Positions 8,501 to 18,318 of a stretch of 44,753 nucleotides of DNA are shown here, piece by piece (position 1 is the stretch's first letter; every line of letters begins with the position of its first letter). Origin of the DNA: Desulfobacula sp. (GTDB taxonomy: Bacteria > Desulfobacterota > Desulfobacteria > Desulfobacterales > Desulfobacteraceae). The DNA lies in the NCBI GenBank assembly GCA_021647625.1, contig JAKIUJ010000006.1:1-44753 (forward strand), read 5' to 3'. The notes below the pieces were generated by a model. That model had not been told where the DNA came from and did no database searches. It saw only the letters and a program-made list of their open reading frames with translations. Made by a program: the position numbers and the translations under genes.

Positions 8501-8983
8501 ATGTCAAATATCAGTATAGAAAACAAAAAGATCTTGATTGTTGATGATGAGCCGGATGTACTAGAGTCTCTTGAAGAGTTGCTCAATATGTGCATAACAG
8601 TCAGAGCACAAAGCTTTGAAGAAGCAAATACACTTCTTGAAACTCAGGATTTTGATATAGCAATTCTCGATATTATGGGTGTTGACGGCTATCAGTTGTT
8701 AGAAACTGCTACCAAAAAAGAGGTGATTACAGTCATGCTTACGGCGCATGCATTAAGCCCGGATAATATTAAAAAATCCTACCTTGGTGGGGCGTGTTCT
8801 TATATTCCAAAACAAGAAATGATAAATATTGAAGCCTTCCTCATTGATGTGCTTAAAGCACAAAAAGATGGTAAAAATCCATGGACAAGCTGGTATACAA
8901 GACTGGCATTGTTTTGTGAGCAAAAATTCGGACCGGATTGGGATAAGGATGAAAAAGAATTCTGGGAAAAAATGATCTACTAA
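8501..8983 (+). CDS. Response regulator receiver protein with a short uncharacterised tail
   Basis: A 160-residue protein. Residues 7-125 form a CheY-like receiver with the acidic pair (ILIVDDEPD), phospho-acceptor Asp in IAILDIMGVDGY, Thr in TVMLTAHA and Lys in YIPKQE. The remaining roughly 35 residues (WTSWYTRLALFCEQKFGPDW and following) are rich in aromatic and charged residues and resemble no output domain I know. The gene stands alone, with no kinase beside it. Its stop codon lies at the very edge of a 160-bp repeat element, so the C-terminus may have been set by that insertion. A TATAAT-like box is at 8407-8412 without a convincing -35. Confidence 0.85.
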   Translation: MSNISIENKKILIVDDEPDVLESLEELLNMCITVRAQSFEEANTLLETQDFDIAILDIMGVDGYQLLETATKKEVITVMLTAHALSPDNIKKSYLGGACSYIPKQEMINIEAFLIDVLKAQKDGKNPWTSWYTRLALFCEQKFGPDWDKDEKEFWEKMIY

Positions 8984-10334: not shown

Positions 10335-10973
10335 ACATCAAAAATACATACAATTTTGAAAATATTAAGAGACCGATACCCGATTGTCAAGACCCAGCTT
10401 ATGCATGAAACACCTTTTCAACTGCTCGTTGCCACCATCATGTCTGCACAATGCACGGATGGTCAGGTCAATAAGGTCACAAAACAACTGTTTAAACAAT
10501 ATCCTGACGCCAAAAAGCTTGCCGATGCGCCATTAAATAAGATTAAAAAAATTATTTATTCAACAGGTTTTTATAATAATAAAGCAAAAAATATTAAAGC
10601 ATGTTCCCTTGCCGTGTTGGATGAGCATCAGGGAATTGTGCCAGAAGATATTACAGCTTTGACAGCTCTACCCGGTGTGGGCCGGAAAACCGCCAATGTG
10701 GTTCTATCCGTGGCTTTTGGTCATCAAGCGATAGTTGTTGATACGCATGTTTTAAGAATTTCCAAACGGCTTGGTTTGACCGCAATGACAGACCCTGTAA
10801 AGGTTGAGTATGCGTTGATGGATATTATTCCAAAATCATCGTGGAGTGATCTTTCTTTGCAATTTATCTATTTCGGCAGGGAAATCTGTGATGCAAAAAA
10901 ACCGCAGTGTGATGATTGTCCATTGGTTGAATTATGTTTGACTATAAGGAAAGGGGCAGTGATTACCGGTTAA
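10323..10973 (+). CDS. nth: Endonuclease III (DNA glycosylase/AP lyase)
   Basis: A bifunctional DNA glycosylase/AP lyase for oxidised pyrimidines, about 216 residues. The helix-hairpin-helix with catalytic Lys is seen as TALPGVGRKTANVVL, the catalytic Asp as VVDTHVLRIS. The [4Fe-4S] loop is CDAKKPQCDDCPLVELC, with the expected C-x6-C-x2-C-x5-C spacing. The ATG at 10323 places KIHTILKILRD against the usual N-terminus; 12 further upstream residues from 10287 derive from a repeat. Its 3' end overlaps the convergent Hpt gene by 11 bases. Confidence 0.95.
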   Translation: MTVSTSKIHTILKILRDRYPIVKTQLMHETPFQLLVATIMSAQCTDGQVNKVTKQLFKQYPDAKKLADAPLNKIKKIIYSTGFYNNKAKNIKACSLAVLDEHQGIVPEDITALTALPGVGRKTANVVLSVAFGHQAIVVDTHVLRISKRLGLTAMTDPVKVEYALMDIIPKSSWSDLSLQFIYFGREICDAKKPQCDDCPLVELCLTIRKGAVITG

Positions 10974-11319
10974 AGTTTTTGATATATTCTATTAGTTTTT
11001 GACATTCATTTTTTAGATGATCTAATTTTTCTTCAGCACCACCCAGGTCGTTATTTTTACCGGCAGCCTCAAGCACCATGGCAGCATCTGCCGCAGATTC
11101 GGCTGCCAGATACCTTAAGGTCCCCTTCAGCTTGTGGGCTGACTCATCCAATGTCTGCGCATTTTTTTCAAGAACAGCACCTTTGATCTCAACGTATTGA
11201 ACGGGCCATTCGGAAATAAAATCAGCAAAGCAATCCTGGATAAGCTCCAGATCATCGTCCATTATTTCTTTTAGTTCTTTCAGGTCGACAACCTCGCTGT
11301 CGTTTTCGGGTGTTGACAT
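10963..11319 (-). CDS. Hpt (histidine phosphotransfer) domain protein
   Basis: A 118-residue single-domain Hpt protein. The phospho-accepting His is in LDESAHKLKGTLRYLAAESA around residue 58, inside a helical bundle. Such proteins relay phosphate between receiver domains. It lies downstream of the acidic protein and the CheY-binding-protein fusion on the same strand, although a repeat element separates them. That fusion's receiver is a plausible partner (inference). The 3' end overlaps nth on the other strand. Confidence 0.88.
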   Translation of the reverse strand: MSTPENDSEVVDLKELKEIMDDDLELIQDCFADFISEWPVQYVEIKGAVLEKNAQTLDESAHKLKGTLRYLAAESAADAAMVLEAAGKNNDLGGAEEKLDHLKNECQKLIEYIKNFNR

Positions 11320-11508: not shown

Positions 11509-12306
11509 TTATGAACCTTTCTTCTGCTCCCAAAAGTTGCGGGAGTCCTTTAGGATATCACTGATGTCGTCATCAATAAGGTCATCATCTTCAAGGTCGT
11601 CAACTTGGCTCTCATTCTGAACTTCAGTTTCTTTTGATGTATCAATCACCTCTGGATCTGATTCTTCGGAAAGATCTAATTCTTCGGAATCCAATTCATT
11701 CAAGGCATTGAGATCATCATCAATTAATTGCCGGCTATCTTCGTCGCTTATAAGTTCGTCTAATTTAAGCAGGTCGTCATCCTGATCGGATTCAATAGTC
11801 TCATCATCATCCAGAGAATAGTCCGGAAGATCGATGTTTAAATCCTCGTCTTCCAGGTCGTCTTCTATATCAACGTTGACAGGGTCATCATCTTTTGGAA
11901 CATCCTCACTATCGTCATCCTGGGTATCCGGATTAATTTGGAATTGTTCCTCTTGATTTAAAACAGTACCCGGTCCAACCTCTTCAAGGGTTTCTTCTAT
12001 ATCAATATCATTCAGGTTAAGATCCTGTGAAAGGGTATCGTCAATATCACCGGTTTCATCTGAGTCAGGAATATAATTTCCCTGTCTATCAAACATGAGA
12101 CTGCCACTGAGATGAATATTAAAATTCATTCTAAAGGCAATTTCATTATTGTGAACAATAATTTCGCCTCCATCGGGTAACAGAGTTGAGGCGGCCATTC
12201 TTTTCTCTAAGATTTTTTTGACCGTATCCAGATCAAGATCCTCTTGCACCGCTTCTATGAGGTCCTTTTCACCATTTTTAATGACATCGGGGTCTGTAAT
12301 TTTCAT
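11509..12306 (-). CDS. Acidic protein of unknown function beside the CheY-binding-protein gene
   Basis: A 265-residue protein I do not recognise. Residues 1-85 look folded, with a helical start (DLIEAVQEDLDLDTVKKIL) and a beta-rich stretch (GGEIIVHNNEIAFRMNFNIH). The remainder is very rich in Asp and Glu with repeated DDD/EDD blocks, suggesting a disordered, strongly negative tail ending EQKKGS. It has no signal peptide. It lies 21 bases downstream of the CheY fusion and probably shares its transcript, so a role in the same signalling pathway is likely but unproven. Confidence 0.75.
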   Translation of the reverse strand: MKITDPDVIKNGEKDLIEAVQEDLDLDTVKKILEKRMAASTLLPDGGEIIVHNNEIAFRMNFNIHLSGSLMFDRQGNYIPDSDETGDIDDTLSQDLNLNDIDIEETLEEVGPGTVLNQEEQFQINPDTQDDDSEDVPKDDDPVNVDIEDDLEDEDLNIDLPDYSLDDDETIESDQDDDLLKLDELISDEDSRQLIDDDLNALNELDSEELDLSEESDPEVIDTSKETEVQNESQVDDLEDDDLIDDDISDILKDSRNFWEQKKGS

Positions 12307-12327: not shown

Positions 12328-13710
12328 TTATCGATAGGCTTTGTCGGCAAAACTGCTTTCAATAAATTTTTCCAAATCGATGATTTTGCCTATCTGCATA
12401 ACATCGTGCATATACCTTTGGATGTTATCAAGCGCTTCAGCCTCGGGATACAGGCCATCCCATCGAATTGCCAGGGGTTGGGAAAATACGTTTTTCAGCA
12501 CATCCGGGTTCAGGCCGATTTTTCCTTGCGGGTCTATAAAATCAACAGCAATTCGGGCCGCTCGTATTTTGTCGTTTTCTATATACTCTCCGGTGTCCAC
12601 CAATAAAGATACAAATTCCTGGGCTGCTTCAGGGTGTTTCTGGATAAAATCTTCCTGCATGGCAACAATGCAGCAGGGATGGTTTTCCCAACGGCTGGCT
12701 GAATAGAATTCAAGATTGCCGATTTCACCGACAATGGCTTTGGTCGCAACAGGTTCCGCCACCATAAATCCTGCAACATCCTCATTCTCTTTCATGATAC
12801 CCGGCATTTTGATGGGGGGAACAACTTCAAAACGGACATTGATGGCTTTTTTTCCCGGTACACCTGGTTTAAGGCCAAGTTCTTTTAAAAACTGGTGGGC
12901 CAGCATATGGTGGACAGACATCTTATGGGGGATGTCCACCACTTTATATTTGTAAAAACTTTGCAATGAATCAAATCGGTGGTCATAGTGTCTGGACCGG
13001 ACAAATGTACTCCCGTTTTTATGGGCAAACAGAACCAGTTTTATAGGCGAATCATAGGCAAAAAGATCCATGGCAATGGGGCCCAGCACAAAAGCGCAAT
13101 CAATTTCGCCATTTTCAAGTCCTTCCTGAATGGGATTCCATCCAGCCTTAAGGCTTGTGGTTAAATCAAAATGTTCGGGGTCGACGTCTCCCTGGTCAAT
13201 CCTGTGTTTTAATGCGCCCAAAGCGAGATGATCCGTAATCTGGATGTGGGCAACATTAAGTTCGACCCTTCCGCCGATAACCTGTCTTTGTTTCGGCTTT
13301 GAGGCTTCTTTGGCAGTATCACCTGAAAAGGCTTTTTCTATGGCTTTTCCGATCTGTATTTCGTCAAATGGTTTGGGAACATGAGCATTGCCGCCGGCTT
13401 CCATGATGGTGATTTGCTGGCCTTTATCTGATTGGGCCGTTGCCATGATAAAAGGCAGGTCCTTGAACTCATCTGTTTTTCTTAGGGCCTTTAAAAACTC
13501 AAGTCCGTCCATCTGCGGCATGTTCCAGTCACTGACAACAAGATCCGGCTTTTCCGCCTTTACCTTTTCAAGTCCATCACGTCCATTAACAGCCATTACA
13601 AGATTTTCAAATCCGGCTTTGTTTAAAATCTGTTTGAACATGATGCGCATGGTTCCAGAGTCATCGGCCACAACAATTTTAATGTTTGGATCTACAGCCA
13701 TAAAAAACAC
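12328..13710 (-). CDS. CheY receiver fused to a cytosolic NrtA/SsuA-like substrate-binding domain
   Basis: A 460-residue fusion without a signal peptide. Residues 10-130 are a complete CheY receiver: acidic pair in VVADDSGTMR, Asp in LVVSDWNMPQMDG, Thr in FIMATAQSD, Lys in VPKPFDE. After a short basic linker, residues about 150-460 form a periplasmic-binding-protein-like domain of the NMT1/NrtA type: DHLALGALKHR, IDCAFVLGPIAMDLFAYD, GFMVAEPVATKAIVG and RWENHPCCIV. The same motifs occur in the protein at 16503-17465. Being cytosolic, the domain is more likely a ligand sensor than a transporter subunit. It lies just after an ABC permease gene. The start may be the ATG three codons in (MAVDPN). 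Ligand unknown. Confidence 0.9.
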   Translation of the reverse strand: MFFMAVDPNIKIVVADDSGTMRIMFKQILNKAGFENLVMAVNGRDGLEKVKAEKPDLVVSDWNMPQMDGLEFLKALRKTDEFKDLPFIMATAQSDKGQQITIMEAGGNAHVPKPFDEIQIGKAIEKAFSGDTAKEASKPKQRQVIGGRVELNVAHIQITDHLALGALKHRIDQGDVDPEHFDLTTSLKAGWNPIQEGLENGEIDCAFVLGPIAMDLFAYDSPIKLVLFAHKNGSTFVRSRHYDHRFDSLQSFYKYKVVDIPHKMSVHHMLAHQFLKELGLKPGVPGKKAINVRFEVVPPIKMPGIMKENEDVAGFMVAEPVATKAIVGEIGNLEFYSASRWENHPCCIVAMQEDFIQKHPEAAQEFVSLLVDTGEYIENDKIRAARIAVDFIDPQGKIGLNPDVLKNVFSQPLAIRWDGLYPEAEALDNIQRYMHDVMQIGKIIDLEKFIESSFADKAYR

Positions 13711-13747: not shown

Positions 13748-14578
13748 TCATTCATTCCACGACCAGCTGAAGGTGTGCTGAATCCTTTGAATCACCCTGT
13801 CCAGAGCAAAACCTAAAATACCAATCGCAATGACCATGGCCATTAATTTGTCATATTCCATGGTGTCACGGGCATCATTGATCAAATATCCGAGCCCACT
13901 GGATACGCCAAGGAATTCTGCCGGAACGAGAACGATCCAGGCAACTCCCAGGGCCAGTCTTAAGCTGGTCAGCATATACGGTAAAGACGCCGGAATAACA
14001 ATGGTTCTGATTAACTGAAAATTATTTGCTCCCTGGTTTAATGCCATTTTTATCCATTGGGGATTGATATTTAAAACGCCAATGGTCGTGTTTAGTATTA
14101 TAGGGCAAACTGTGGCCATTACAATCAAAAAATAGACTGCGGACTCAAAATTTGCAAATAACAGTATGGCAACCGGCATCCAGGACAAAGGGCTGATCAT
14201 TCTGATAAATTGTATGGAAGAGTAAGAAAGGGACCGGAATTTTGGATAAAATCCAACCATAATGCCTATGGGAACACCAATAACAGCCGACAGGAGAATA
14301 CCAATAAGAATCCTTTTTAAACTTGCAAAAACCGATATCCAGAACTTGCTTTCCTGGACCGCAGCACAAAGGGCATCAAATGTAGGTCCTGGAAGGAATC
14401 CACTGAAATGGGAGAACTGTTCTCTTGTGAAAATGAAACTTGAAACAGCGACCCAGGCAAGAGCAAAAAGAGCAAGCCCTAAGACTTCAAATTTCCAGCC
14501 GAAATCACGACTTCCGAATACAGCATTCAGTCCGACCTGCTTTGGATCACGATACATGAATCGATTAATTGATTTCAA
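13748..14578 (-). CDS. ABC transporter permease (SsuC/TauC/NrtB type)
   Basis: A 276-residue inner-membrane protein with about six predicted membrane segments, beginning near LGLALFALAWVAVSSFIF. The binding-protein-dependent permease signature appears as the EAA-like loop ALNQGANNFQLIRTIVIPAS, followed by LRLALGVAWIVLVPAEFLG and SGLGYLINDARDTMEYDK, typical of the nitrate/sulfonate/taurine group. It overlaps the binding-protein gene by 14 bases. The substrate cannot be named from the sequence. Confidence 0.92.
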   Translation of the reverse strand: MKSINRFMYRDPKQVGLNAVFGSRDFGWKFEVLGLALFALAWVAVSSFIFTREQFSHFSGFLPGPTFDALCAAVQESKFWISVFASLKRILIGILLSAVIGVPIGIMVGFYPKFRSLSYSSIQFIRMISPLSWMPVAILLFANFESAVYFLIVMATVCPIILNTTIGVLNINPQWIKMALNQGANNFQLIRTIVIPASLPYMLTSLRLALGVAWIVLVPAEFLGVSSGLGYLINDARDTMEYDKLMAMVIAIGILGFALDRVIQRIQHTFSWSWNE

Positions 14579-15752
14579 CGATTTCTTCCCTTGTATATGG
14601 TTTGCTCATGTCACAATTGCAAAATTGATTGATTCCTCCCAATTCATCCATAGCCTTTAATACAAAAGAGTTGTCAACCAATGCATTAGCAGCCTTACCC
14701 GTATCAAGCCTTTCAAGAAATTGGGTGTTGCCTTCCACAAGAGTCTCACGCATCTGGTCGATGATAAACCGGGTTGCCGAAGGAAAAGGAAAGGGCTGGA
14801 AGCCGATTCGTGCTACATTCCAGCCTGGATGAATGAGTTGGTTTTTTTTAGGATTTTCAAATACCCGGCTTAAAATTTTTTTGGGCATGGGCAGATAACC
14901 TTCCCCATCCCGGCTCAAAAGATAGGCGGTCTCCTTAGGGTTGCGAATACACCATTCCTGTGCCCTTACAACTGCATTCATTGCTTTTTGCATCATAACA
15001 GGATTTGTATTAATGAATTTTTCGCTGGATACAATGACGCAGCAGGGGTGGTTCTTCCAGATATCTCCGCTGAATCTCATAATCCTTGCCTTAAATTTTA
15101 GCTCTGCAATGGCATTGAATGGATCAGCAACAATATAGCCGTCAATTTTTTTTCCCAATAGAGCCGGCGGCATATTAGGTGGTGGAAGAATGGATAAATT
15201 GACTTGATTTTTTTTAAGTTTATAGGATTGCGGCTTGATGACCGGTACAAGTCCGGCAGACTGTATCCCCATTTGGAGAATCAGGTTGTGCATGGAGTAC
15301 CAGGATGGAACGGCAATTTGTTTTTTGCCAAGATCATCAAAGGTTTTAATGTCTGAATCCCCCCTCACCGTAACGGCACTTCCGTTTGTATGATTCCATC
15401 CGAGAACCTTTACCGGGATTTTTTGATTAAATCGCATATATACAGGGATGGGAAAAAGCATGTGGGTAAAGTTAAATTTTTCTGCTAGAAATGACTCGGT
15501 CAGTATGTTCCATGATCTTACCATAACCGGTCTTTCAACCTTAAGTCCTTCTTCGGCAAAATACCCAAGCCCGTGGGCAACAAGCAGTGGGGTGGCATCT
15601 GTTATCGGAAGATACCCTATTTTGAGCGTTTCCTTTTTTGAAGCTGCCAAAAGAGGTCGGGCAGGCCCTGGAACAAAAAGACTTGAAGCTGCAACCGCCG
15701 CCGTCTTTAAAAACTGTCGTCTTGTTTTTTGTGATAGAGTTTGATCATTCAT
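14565..15752 (-). CDS. Tat-exported ABC substrate-binding protein (NrtA/SsuA-like)
   Basis: A 395-residue periplasmic binding protein. The N-terminus has a Tat signal (TRRQFLKTAAVAASSLF) ending near PLLAASKK. The mature part starts LKIGYLPITDATPLLVAHG, typical of NMT1/NrtA/SsuA binding proteins. IWKNHPCCVIVSSEKF is the motif shared with the two cytosolic relatives in this cluster. The gene shares one base with the ATPase stop and overlaps the permease, so all three form a transporter. Tat export suggests folding, or cofactor loading, before export. Ligand unknown; nitrate, sulfonate or similar small anions are family possibilities. Confidence 0.92.
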   Translation of the reverse strand: MNDQTLSQKTRRQFLKTAAVAASSLFVPGPARPLLAASKKETLKIGYLPITDATPLLVAHGLGYFAEEGLKVERPVMVRSWNILTESFLAEKFNFTHMLFPIPVYMRFNQKIPVKVLGWNHTNGSAVTVRGDSDIKTFDDLGKKQIAVPSWYSMHNLILQMGIQSAGLVPVIKPQSYKLKKNQVNLSILPPPNMPPALLGKKIDGYIVADPFNAIAELKFKARIMRFSGDIWKNHPCCVIVSSEKFINTNPVMMQKAMNAVVRAQEWCIRNPKETAYLLSRDGEGYLPMPKKILSRVFENPKKNQLIHPGWNVARIGFQPFPFPSATRFIIDQMRETLVEGNTQFLERLDTGKAANALVDNSFVLKAMDELGGINQFCNCDMSKPYTREEIVEIN

Positions 15753-16519
15753 TATAAAAGACTCCTCTTGGCAAGATACGAGTTTTTGAATCGTTCCAGT
15801 ATTTTCGTGCGGATTTCTTTAAATTCAGGCGCGTTTCTGTCCCTTGGATATTCCTCATTAATCTCAAACATATCCGTTATATTGGCTGGTTCTCCAGCCA
15901 GGAGTATGATTTTATTTCCCAGTCGGATGGCCTCATCAATATCATGGGTAACAAATACAGCTGTAAATTGTTCCGATAGCCATAAATTGACCAGCTCTTC
16001 TTGTATATGCGCCTGGGTAAACGTGTCAAGGGATGCAAAAGGCTCATCCATAAGCAATGCTTCAGGGTGTCCGACAAGCGCTCTTGCAAGACAGACACGT
16101 TGGGCCATGCCCAAAGATAGCTGACTGGGTTTTGCATCTGCAAAACCAGCAAGTCCCATGATTTCAAGAAATTGATATACACGGTATTCAAGCTCTTTTG
16201 TGTCCCCTCTGAGCTTGCAGCCATAGGCAACATTCTCTGTGACATTTAACCAGGGAATCAGGGTGGGCTGTTGAAACAACATGGATCGGGAAGGATGAAT
16301 GCCGTGGATGGGCTCCCCGTCAACGATAATATTTCCCGATGTTGGTTTTTCCAATCCTGCCAACATGTTCAAAAGTGTTGTCTTTCCGCAGCCGGATTCC
16401 CCTAAGATTATTACAAAATCGCCATCATCAATGGAAAAACTGATGTCTTTAAGTACAATATAATCTGAATTTTCTGATTTATTGTATATTTTTGTTACTT
16501 TTTCAATTTCGATTTTCAA
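15752..16519 (-). CDS. ABC transporter ATP-binding protein (SsuB/TauB/NrtD type)
   Basis: The ATPase of the importer, about 255 residues with the chosen start. Walker A is GESGCGKTTLL, Q-loop LFQQPTLIPW, Walker B ALLMDEPFASLD and the switch His FVTHDIDEA. The signature motif reads LSLGM where LSGGQ is usual, an unusual substitution. The frame is open to 16579, but that would overlap the preceding gene by 77 bases. A TTG at 16519 (protein MKIEIEKVTKIY) aligns with the family start and leaves a 17-base overlap. Confidence 0.9.
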   Translation of the reverse strand: MKIEIEKVTKIYNKSENSDYIVLKDISFSIDDGDFVIILGESGCGKTTLLNMLAGLEKPTSGNIIVDGEPIHGIHPSRSMLFQQPTLIPWLNVTENVAYGCKLRGDTKELEYRVYQFLEIMGLAGFADAKPSQLSLGMAQRVCLARALVGHPEALLMDEPFASLDTFTQAHIQEELVNLWLSEQFTAVFVTHDIDEAIRLGNKIILLAGEPANITDMFEINEEYPRDRNAPEFKEIRTKILERFKNSYLAKRSLL

Positions 16520-17465
16520 GGCTGTGTCCCAATGTTTTGTTTGAAGTAAACGCAGTTTCGACAAACCGGGCAATATCAATTTTTTCAGTCATAATGTTCA
16601 TTGTATCCGACATATAATTGTGAATTGTTTCTATCGCATCAAGATCCGGTGTTAAAAGATCAGGATCAAAGCAGATATCGGATTTTAACAATACCTGCTG
16701 GATGACGTTTTGTTTTTGATTCAAAAAGTGCCTGGCAATTGAAAAAAGGGATTCATCTTTTTGCATTTCGATTTTTTGGGCTGCTTGTACAAATAAGATG
16801 ATAATCTCCTTTACTGCATCAGGATATTGTTCAATAAACCGGGTGCTCATAATAAAGGCACAACAGGGATGGTTTTTCCATAGTTTGCCTGTGTAACACA
16901 CGCGTGTGGCTGTATCTTGTAATATGGCCTGACTGCCATAGGGTTCGGCAACAGCAAAGCCTGCAATATCGTTGTCAGTGTCATTTGCAAGCATCTGGGG
17001 CATTAGATAAGGGTTTGCAGTCTCCCGAACAACTTGAGCATTTTCGTCGTTATGGGTACCAAATTTAAGACCGGCAGATGACAGGAGACGATGTAAAAGC
17101 ATGGTTTGAACGCACAACTCAGATGGAACCAGAACCGTGTGATTTTTGAAATCCTTGATGCAGGTTATAGTGGATATGTTTTTTTTGACAATGATACCTC
17201 CTCCCCTGTGGGTAAACATCAAAAGTTTGATATCAAGGCCTTTGGCGAACAGATCCATAGCCGTTGGGATAGTTATGAATGCCCCATTGATATTTCCTTG
17301 AGTCAATTGATCACAAAGCTGGTTCCATGAGTTAAAAGCAAATGATTTAAATGTTGACTGTTCAAGGACGGCATCTTTTTTATTTAGCAGATGATCAACA
17401 ACGCCTAAAATAAGATGATCAATAATTTTTAGATGTCCGATTTTAAACTGTGGCTGACCCTTCAT
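16503..17465 (-). CDS. Cytosolic NrtA/SsuA-like binding-protein homologue without signal peptide
   Basis: A 320-residue protein resembling the C-terminal part of the CheY fusion at 12328: both have a DHL-LG start, A-MDLFA with IKLLMFTHRGGG, AGFAVAEPYGSQAIL and LWKNHPCCAFIMS. It starts directly at the domain (MKGQPQFKIGHLKIIDHLIL) with no export signal, so it should remain in the cytoplasm. It is the first gene of the transporter operon and overlaps the ATPase gene. This recalls the regulatory binding-protein-like domain of cyanobacterial NrtC, which senses the transported ligand (family knowledge); the same role here is an inference. Confidence 0.85.
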   Translation of the reverse strand: MKGQPQFKIGHLKIIDHLILGVVDHLLNKKDAVLEQSTFKSFAFNSWNQLCDQLTQGNINGAFITIPTAMDLFAKGLDIKLLMFTHRGGGIIVKKNISTITCIKDFKNHTVLVPSELCVQTMLLHRLLSSAGLKFGTHNDENAQVVRETANPYLMPQMLANDTDNDIAGFAVAEPYGSQAILQDTATRVCYTGKLWKNHPCCAFIMSTRFIEQYPDAVKEIIILFVQAAQKIEMQKDESLFSIARHFLNQKQNVIQQVLLKSDICFDPDLLTPDLDAIETIHNYMSDTMNIMTEKIDIARFVETAFTSNKTLGHSLENRN

Positions 17466-17805: not shown

Positions 17806-18318
17806 ATGAATTCAGATACGAATATACCGACAACCACAGATTATTATTTAAAGCCCGGGTATATTTTTGTGCCGGATAAACCCACAACCATTTCCACAGT
17901 GTTAGGATCCTCTGTCGCTGTCAGTTTGTATGACAGGTCACAAAAAATTGGTGGTATGAGCCATTTTTTATTCCCATATACGCAAGCAAAACAAGAGACA
18001 ACTGCACAGTATGGAAATATCGCTATATGGACATTGATAAAAATGATCACAAATGCCGGTGCGAAAAAATCAAGGTTGGAAGCACAGATTTTCGGGGGGG
18101 CTTTCAATCCTGAATTTCCCGGGCGGGATATCGGCCGGGATAACCTGGGATCAGCCCGTCAGGCTCTTTTTCGAAAAAATATTAAAATTGCATCTGAAGA
18201 TGTCGGTGGAGAGTTGGGTAGAAAGATTGTATTTAATACCACTACCTTTGAGATTGTTGTATTAAAGGTTGATCGCTTGAGGGAGTCGGACTGGTTTCCC
18301 TATTCAGGGGATCGATAG
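17806..18318 (+). CDS. cheD: CheD-like protein lacking the catalytic cysteine
   Basis: A 170-residue CheD-fold protein. CheD deamidates Gln residues of chemoreceptors with a Cys-His-Thr triad. The motif that normally reads LGSC-VAV is LGSSVAVSLYD here (residues 33-43), so the nucleophilic Cys is Ser. The His is kept in GGMSHFLFP, and AQIFGGAF and NLGSARQALF are typical of the family. Loss of the Cys predicts an inactive or altered enzyme that may only bind partners such as CheC/CheY-like proteins. It is divergent from the binding-protein/ABC operon and convergent with ubiB, seven bases away. Confidence 0.85.
   Translation: MNSDTNIPTTTDYYLKPGYIFVPDKPTTISTVLGSSVAVSLYDRSQKIGGMSHFLFPYTQAKQETTAQYGNIAIWTLIKMITNAGAKKSRLEAQIFGGAFNPEFPGRDIGRDNLGSARQALFRKNIKIASEDVGGELGRKIVFNTTTFEIVVLKVDRLRESDWFPYSGDR

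Follow-up and report, generated by a model that had tools for sequence, protein, structure and literature searches.

Bacteria are usually viewed as steering by solutes outside the cell. Binding proteins such as NrtA, CmpA and SsuA are exported and unfused, and CheV proteins carry a CheW domain and then a receiver in one chain. Cytosolic NrtA-type domains have been described as the C-terminal regulatory domains of CmpC and NrtC, which belong to the cyanobacterial bicarbonate and nitrate transporters and are joined to the transporter ATPase (PMC11349869, in excerpt). In the two-protein NasS-NasT system, NasS, a cytosolic NrtA-like sensor that keeps all nitrate-site residues, holds the receiver-bearing protein NasT, which also has an ANTAR domain, until nitrate or nitrite binds (PMC3795266, in excerpt). 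Reading of internal metabolites by chemosensory arrays has been described in few cases, for example CheWS of Treponema denticola, in which an intracellular small-molecule sensor, a CheR-like SAM domain, is fused to CheW and anchored in the array; the excerpted text mentions no receiver in this protein (PMC10653840).

The DNA analysed here (the window) is a 44,753-nucleotide stretch from a Desulfobacula sp. (assembly GCA_021647625.1, contig JAKIUJ010000006.1). An earlier note, made from the letters of this DNA, had described an open reading frame at 12328-13710 that joins a complete receiver to an NrtA/SsuA-type ligand-binding domain with no export signal. The frame is present, on the minus strand, while the plus strand has many stops there. 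Because an AAGGAG lies ahead of the ATG at 13701, and because the fourth residue of the listed frame is the start in most aligned relatives, we take the protein to be 457 aa long (12328-13701, with the stop at 12328) rather than 460 aa with a GTG start at 13710. The gene is part of an apparent minus-strand operon, recognised by spacing and conservation, in the order standalone NMT1_2 protein, ATPase, Tat-exported NMT1_2 protein, permease, fusion, acidic protein and Hpt protein; scans of this operon for consensus promoters and terminators gave no more sites than scans of shuffled sequence. The features of the locus are as follows.

10963..11319, minus strand: Hpt phosphotransfer protein, 118 aa, with His62 in an AHKLKG context; a possible phosphate partner
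11509..12306, minus strand: acidic 265-aa protein with no family match in Pfam or NCBIfam
12328..13701, minus strand: REC-NMT1 fusion gene, 457 aa, with a CheY-like receiver at about residues 9-121 and a cytosolic NMT1_2/NrtA-type binding domain at about 147-457
13748..14578, minus strand: ABC-transporter permease (BPD_transp_1; nearest NCBIfam models SaoP and NtrB, both under cut-off)
14565..15752, minus strand: exported NMT1_2 binding protein with an HPCC motif (Tat signal TIGR01409, 18.4 bits against a cut-off of 16.7)
15752..16579, minus strand: ABC-transporter ATPase (nearest NCBIfam models SaoA and NtrCD, under their cut-offs; a listed frame whose true start may be downstream)
16503..17465, minus strand: standalone NMT1_2 protein of 320 aa, encoded by the gene that opens the apparent operon; a signal peptide was looked for and none was found
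17806..18318, plus strand: CheD (chemoreceptor deamidase family), above the Pfam cut-off and divergent from the operon

The fusion of a CheY-like receiver to a cytosolic NMT1_2/NrtA-type domain is confirmed. In 460-aa numbering, Pfam places Response_reg (PF00072) at residues 12-124, with 89.4 bits against a cut-off of 30.2, and NMT1_2 (PF13379) at residues 150-385, with 90.8 bits against 24.7. The phospho-site aspartate, acidic pair, threonine and lysine of a receiver are all there, and D14, D58, T88 and K110 (numbered on the 457-aa protein) are invariant in 36/36 and in 42/42 aligned members, which bears out the reading of the receiver as complete. No signal-like or membrane segment was found in the fusion (the highest 19-residue Kyte-Doolittle mean is 1.25, and 0.83 within the first 60 residues), in keeping with the proposed lack of an export signal. 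Two-domain relatives are about 70-90% identical inside the family and about 41-60% elsewhere, so the fusion is not a product of chance.

The AlphaFold model of the fusion (pLDDT 91.3, pTM 0.88) confidently predicts a complete NrtA/CmpA-type fold with two lobes for the second domain; the ligand cleft postulated by the earlier note was judged from this fold together with conservation. The modelled receiver fits CheY 4hns with an rmsd of 1.0 over 124 residues, and its nearest NCBIfam, PDB-sequence and PDB-fold matches are all CheY. By VIA-align, the best structural match of the second domain is 3un6 (Z 36.3, rmsd 2.0), a zinc-bound binding protein of Staphylococcus aureus that is part of an ABC importer (about 21% identity), followed by NrtA (Z 34.8), CmpA (34.6), CmpC (34.0), NrtC (32.0) and SsuA (about 26). 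Foldseek comparison of the binding domain with the CmpC/NrtC regulatory domain gave E values of 2e-18 to 1e-16. Ranked by sequence with the window protein alone, 3un6 and the CmpC/NrtC regulatory domains come above periplasmic NrtA and CmpA; with a 17-sequence profile, NrtA is equal to them. The earlier note stated that such domains normally sit in the periplasm, as do NrtA, CmpA and SsuA, which share this fold; NasS and the CmpC/NrtC regulatory domains are further cytosolic examples.

Like the CmpC/NrtC regulatory domain, the window's binding domain is a cytosolic domain of NrtA type associated with an ABC transporter, but it is joined to a CheY receiver, and the ATPase is a separate gene. 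Like NasS-NasT, the fusion unites a cytosolic NrtA-like sensor with a receiver, but it does so in one chain, the window protein has no ANTAR match, and HPCC replaces the HPEK of NrtA in 110/110 fusions examined. Nor is it CheY proper, since it has two domains and scores 94.8 bits against a cut-off of 189 for the NF007901 equivalog model; the window protein also has neither the CheW domain of CheV and CheWS nor the CheR-like domain of the latter. Receiver and CheW occur in one chain in 11/33 scanned relatives, but with the receiver first, the binding domain between and CheW last, the reverse of the CheV order, and these proteins resemble CheWS in fusing an intracellular sensor to CheW but have an NMT1 domain and a receiver where CheWS has its SAM domain. 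PDB entry 8q52, a leucine-specific-binding protein/CheY construct, is presumably an engineered chimera. The earlier note knew of no described protein of this design, and among the top-ranked titles and abstract openings of a literature that took in few subscription papers we likewise recognised no description of NMT1-type or periplasmic-binding domains joined to a receiver or to CheW. The novelty is one of description and function, since the sequences themselves will sit in databases, and the CheW form may be among the 30 undescribed CheW architectures counted in PMC10653840 (its Fig. S10).

The pocket of the binding domain carries a distinctive motif. After removal of repeats and some short pieces (81, 38, 47 and 48 rows becoming 73, 37, 42 and 44), HPCC is present in 73/73 'short' fusions, 37/37 CheW-labelled fusions, 41/42 exported transporter proteins and 26/44 standalone forms, where 'short' means having no blastp match to one CheW domain, a class to which L050 and L182 were misassigned, Pfam finding CheW in the former and a CheA core in the latter. 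In an alignment of the standalone NMT1 protein, HPCC falls on HPEK of NrtA, so that Lys becomes Cys, and CmpC has HPGK at this place. The HPEK lysine is a nitrate-binding residue of NrtA, so the fusion is unlikely to bind nitrate as NrtA does. The SaoX/SaoA/SaoP assignment was also set aside as a clue to the ligand, the scores being far under the model cut-offs. A Cys-Cys pair stands at the position of HPCC in zinc-bound 3un6, which makes chemistry based on a metal or on thiols a candidate for the cleft. The H409 residue of CmpC is the counterpart of H196, a putative ligand residue of NrtA (PMC11349869, in excerpt); H259 and H264 of the fusion, both invariant, fall in this stretch in a by-eye alignment, and either could be the counterpart. 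Of the 311 binding-domain positions, 68 show at least 97% conservation across 81 fusions, and 15 exported proteins have the same majority residue at 33 of these 68 positions versus 43 of the 243 others. Such a shared pocket signature fits, but does not prove, a shared or similar ligand for the fusion and the exported protein.

The fused outputs of the cassette were surveyed with Pfam in 33 relatives that have both domains, many of them chosen because their length was unusual. In 11 of them CheW is C-terminal (L046, L049, L050, L052, L053, L056, L156, L165, L171, L173 and L202), two being REC-NMT1-REC-NMT1-CheW proteins of about 1200 aa (L049:7968-11567 and L050:6790-10407). Two more, L182:5978-9058 and L187:1-3213 (both minus strand, the latter frame extending beyond the fetched stretch), have a CheA core of H-kinase_dim, HATPase_c and CheW twice, with no Hpt match, and would be chemotaxis kinases that carry their own cytosolic sensor of the binding-protein type. 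Nine have an HATPase_c_2 kinase together with STAS (L188, L190-L193, L196-L199) and two have SpoIIE (L189, L195), fusions that point to partner-switching regulation by the same sensor, and in one (L186) a DUF3369-HisKA-HATPase_c part stands in front of the cassette. The remaining eight have no recognised output (L035, the 490-aa protein of L051, L194, L200, L203-L205, and L201, which is truncated at a contig end). The pair of receiver and binding domain thus behaves as a portable cassette, with signalling outputs in the same chain in 25/33 scanned relatives. They are non-chemosensory in 12/33, so chemotaxis is not the cassette's only role, and a purely chemosensory role was dropped given the HATPase_c_2-STAS, SpoIIE and HisKA fusions among these odd-length relatives.

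A quick binding-domain tree (117 rows, with no HATPase_c_2, SpoIIE or HisKA forms among them) groups all fusions in one clade (SH-aLRT 100) with the standalone forms outside, and nests the output-less clade of the window (42 rows, support 100) among CheW-bearing branches. On the simplest reading of these sequences a fused output was lost in the window's lineage, and the output-less forms elsewhere suggest further losses.

We lean towards the view that this cassette is a two-input cytosolic sensor, a gauge of an internal solute that gates a signalling output, which in many relatives is chemosensory. In this scheme the ABC transporter encoded in the operon would bring in a solute, this solute or a chemically related one would bind in the NMT1 cleft, and closure of the domain would alter the uptake, retention or transfer of phosphate by the receiver at D58, or the presentation of the output domain. 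The output would be chemosensory where CheW or a whole CheA core is in the same chain, and in some relatives would be the anti-sigma-type kinase with STAS, the SpoIIE phosphatase or the HisKA kinase. The window protein has no fused output and so probably influences the chemosensory system in trans; its putative phosphate partner is CheA or the Hpt protein of the operon, and the acidic downstream protein may serve as a tether. Sensing of an intracellular solute by the fusion is plausible. The broader proposal, that a CheY receiver plus cytosolic binding protein forms a new class of input module plugged into chemosensory adaptors, CheA and partner-switching kinases and phosphatases, we hold to be evenly poised.

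The distribution of the fusion among genomes ties it to CheW. An order-wide search at E 1e-30 matched 46/194 genomes, and 42/194 encode the two-domain protein. The four others are a receiver-only genome (G102), two with the binding domain only (G106 and G175) and G181, where the match runs from residue 88 on and the frame has NMT1_2 and CheW with no receiver match. In a phylum-wide draw, 21/395 genomes matched at E 1e-50. A scan of named genomes gave 218 encoding stretches, and the best 80 of these 218 are largely from Desulfobacterales (Desulfobacter, Desulfobacula, Desulfotignum, Desulfospira, Desulfamplus and Desulfoluna) and also include the isolate Rhabdochromatium marinum DSM 5261, together with three spirochaete assemblies and one Melioribacteraceae assembly, these four being of metagenome type and possibly containing misplaced contigs. 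The operon is present in Desulfobacter latus (L102) and in Desulfospira joergensenii (L088). CheW domains (PF01584, E 1e-5) occur in 141/194 genomes, 42/42 with the fusion versus 99/152 without it (Fisher 2.7e-7, a test that ignores shared ancestry and genome size). Some of these CheW matches are the fusions themselves, yet each of the 42 fusion genomes lists at least four matches, and the window's genome has 12 CheW matches and 25 MCP signalling domains.

Flagella follow the fusion less closely. FliM was detected in 31/42 fusion genomes and 76/152 others; 11/42 fusion genomes have no detected FliM and 10 of these 11 have no FliG either, so a flagellar output cannot be general and was rejected as the general role of a family that is tied to CheW, not to flagella. 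In the window's own genome FliG was found and FliM was not, which makes a draft gap likely there. A 97% complete genome of the same genus, G192, has FliM and FliG, with CheW, fusion and exported protein absent at the thresholds used. The one-contig genomes G115 (8.0 Mb) and G117 (6.9 Mb) have many CheW domains and CheW-bearing fusions, and neither FliM nor FliG.

The exported binding protein was found at E 1e-60 in 24/194 genomes from 12 families, and 23 of the 24 also hold the fusion, a co-occurrence whose statistics ignore shared ancestry and genome size; the exception is G106, which shows only a standalone binding domain. The two genes are within about 4 kb of each other in 10/23 genomes and apart or on different contigs in 13/23; they are truly apart in the one-contig genomes G117 and G169, and for some of the 13 contig breaks may mask linkage. 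At the same threshold no transporter orthologue was found in 19/42 fusion genomes, so the solute may also have another source.

For the gene in the window the main competing reading, and one compatible with solute sensing, is control of the operon's ABC transporter by the fusion, as proposed for the CmpC/NrtC regulatory domains, with receiver phosphorylation as a further signal that switches uptake on or off. In its favour, the binding domain aligns to the CmpC/NrtC regulatory domains as well as or better than to periplasmic NrtA/CmpA, and the exported protein is almost never without the fusion (23/24 genomes). Counted within 6 kb of the fusion in the fetched loci, which are a retrieved set and not a random sample and include some short contigs, ATPase, exported binding protein and permease are all present for 39/73 'short' fusions, but for just 3/37 CheW-labelled ones, and the permease is on the same strand for 42/73 'short' fusions, at a median distance of 57 bp. 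A standalone NMT1 gene, within 6 kb of 41/73 'short' and 1/37 CheW-labelled fusions, cuts both ways: in the window it encodes a cytosolic protein ahead of the ATPase, but it is also the more obvious CmpC/NrtC counterpart. Since 19/42 fusion genomes lack a transporter orthologue at E 1e-60 and signalling outputs are present in the same chain in 25/33 scanned relatives, we regard transporter control as unlikely, though deserving of weight; the CheA, HATPase_c_2-STAS, SpoIIE and HisKA fusions in particular tip the balance slightly away from it and towards a signalling sensor.

Gene control of the NasS/NasT kind within one chain, where the ligand state frees or hides the receiver and another protein carries the effect to transcription or RNA, appears improbable. 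The NasS precedent itself (PMC3795266, in excerpt) and the anti-sigma-type kinase, STAS and SpoIIE domains of relatives, which could reach transcription by partner switching, speak for it, but the receiver is CheY-like, and no ANTAR, DNA-binding or RNA-binding output was found in the window protein or the 33 relatives, bar a weak nucleoprotein match below cut-off in L201. We give still less credence to loss of the ligand, with the binding domain a mere protein-binding scaffold beside the receiver. The cysteine in place of the NrtA HPEK lysine could be so explained, but the invariant histidines of the ligand-site stretch, the 68/311 positions at least 97% conserved, of which 33/68 agree with the exported protein against 43/243 elsewhere, and the full binding-protein fold predicted by the model all argue for a retained cleft.

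If the cassette is indeed a sensor of an internal solute, cells would set taxis and other responses by internal nutrient level, the importer reading a solute on one side of the membrane and the sensor the same solute on the other, and sulfate reducers and some relatives would probably act, through the fusion, on the amount of a nutrient already imported. Such a widespread cassette, travelling with a single importer, would open metabolism-dependent signalling to direct tests, with one solute, one exported and one internal binding protein and one phosphorylatable site.

Within the same 6 kb and the same retrieved set, other genes near the fusion also differ between the two classes: the acidic gene accompanies 50/73 'short' and 0/37 CheW-labelled fusions, Hpt 15/73 and 0/37, and CheD 22/73 and 3/37. 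An FDRxGN-like core is present in 45 of the 50 acidic-gene matches, and 44 share the strand of the fusion; the matches in L043, L131 and L137 are weak ones that could be spurious. The acidic protein has a conserved N-terminal domain of about 80 aa, a long D/E-rich linker and a C-terminal DDDIxDILKESRxFWExKK motif, which we guess might dock on a partner; its N-terminal domain gave a weak model (pLDDT 70.4, pTM 0.38), for which Foldseek found nothing at E 0.001 or better. Two copies of this protein are found in L124 and in L139. A full CheA gene (Hpt, H-kinase_dim, HATPase_c and CheW) adjoins the fusion in L039, and CheX phosphatase genes adjoin the fusions in L050 and L053.

The window also encodes an orphan receiver protein of 160 aa (8501-8983), and about 10 of the best 80 named-genome loci have a close relative of it in the neighbourhood of the operon. 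In 10 CheW-type loci, for example L168:5937-6794, an opposite-strand gene lies about 100 bp from the CheW-bearing fusion, and the one in L168 encodes an HDOD protein. At L016:2054-3373 (G047:C214:2063-3439) an apparent stop-ridden second copy, consisting of a separate receiver frame followed by an intact standalone NMT1 frame, is present beside the fusion.
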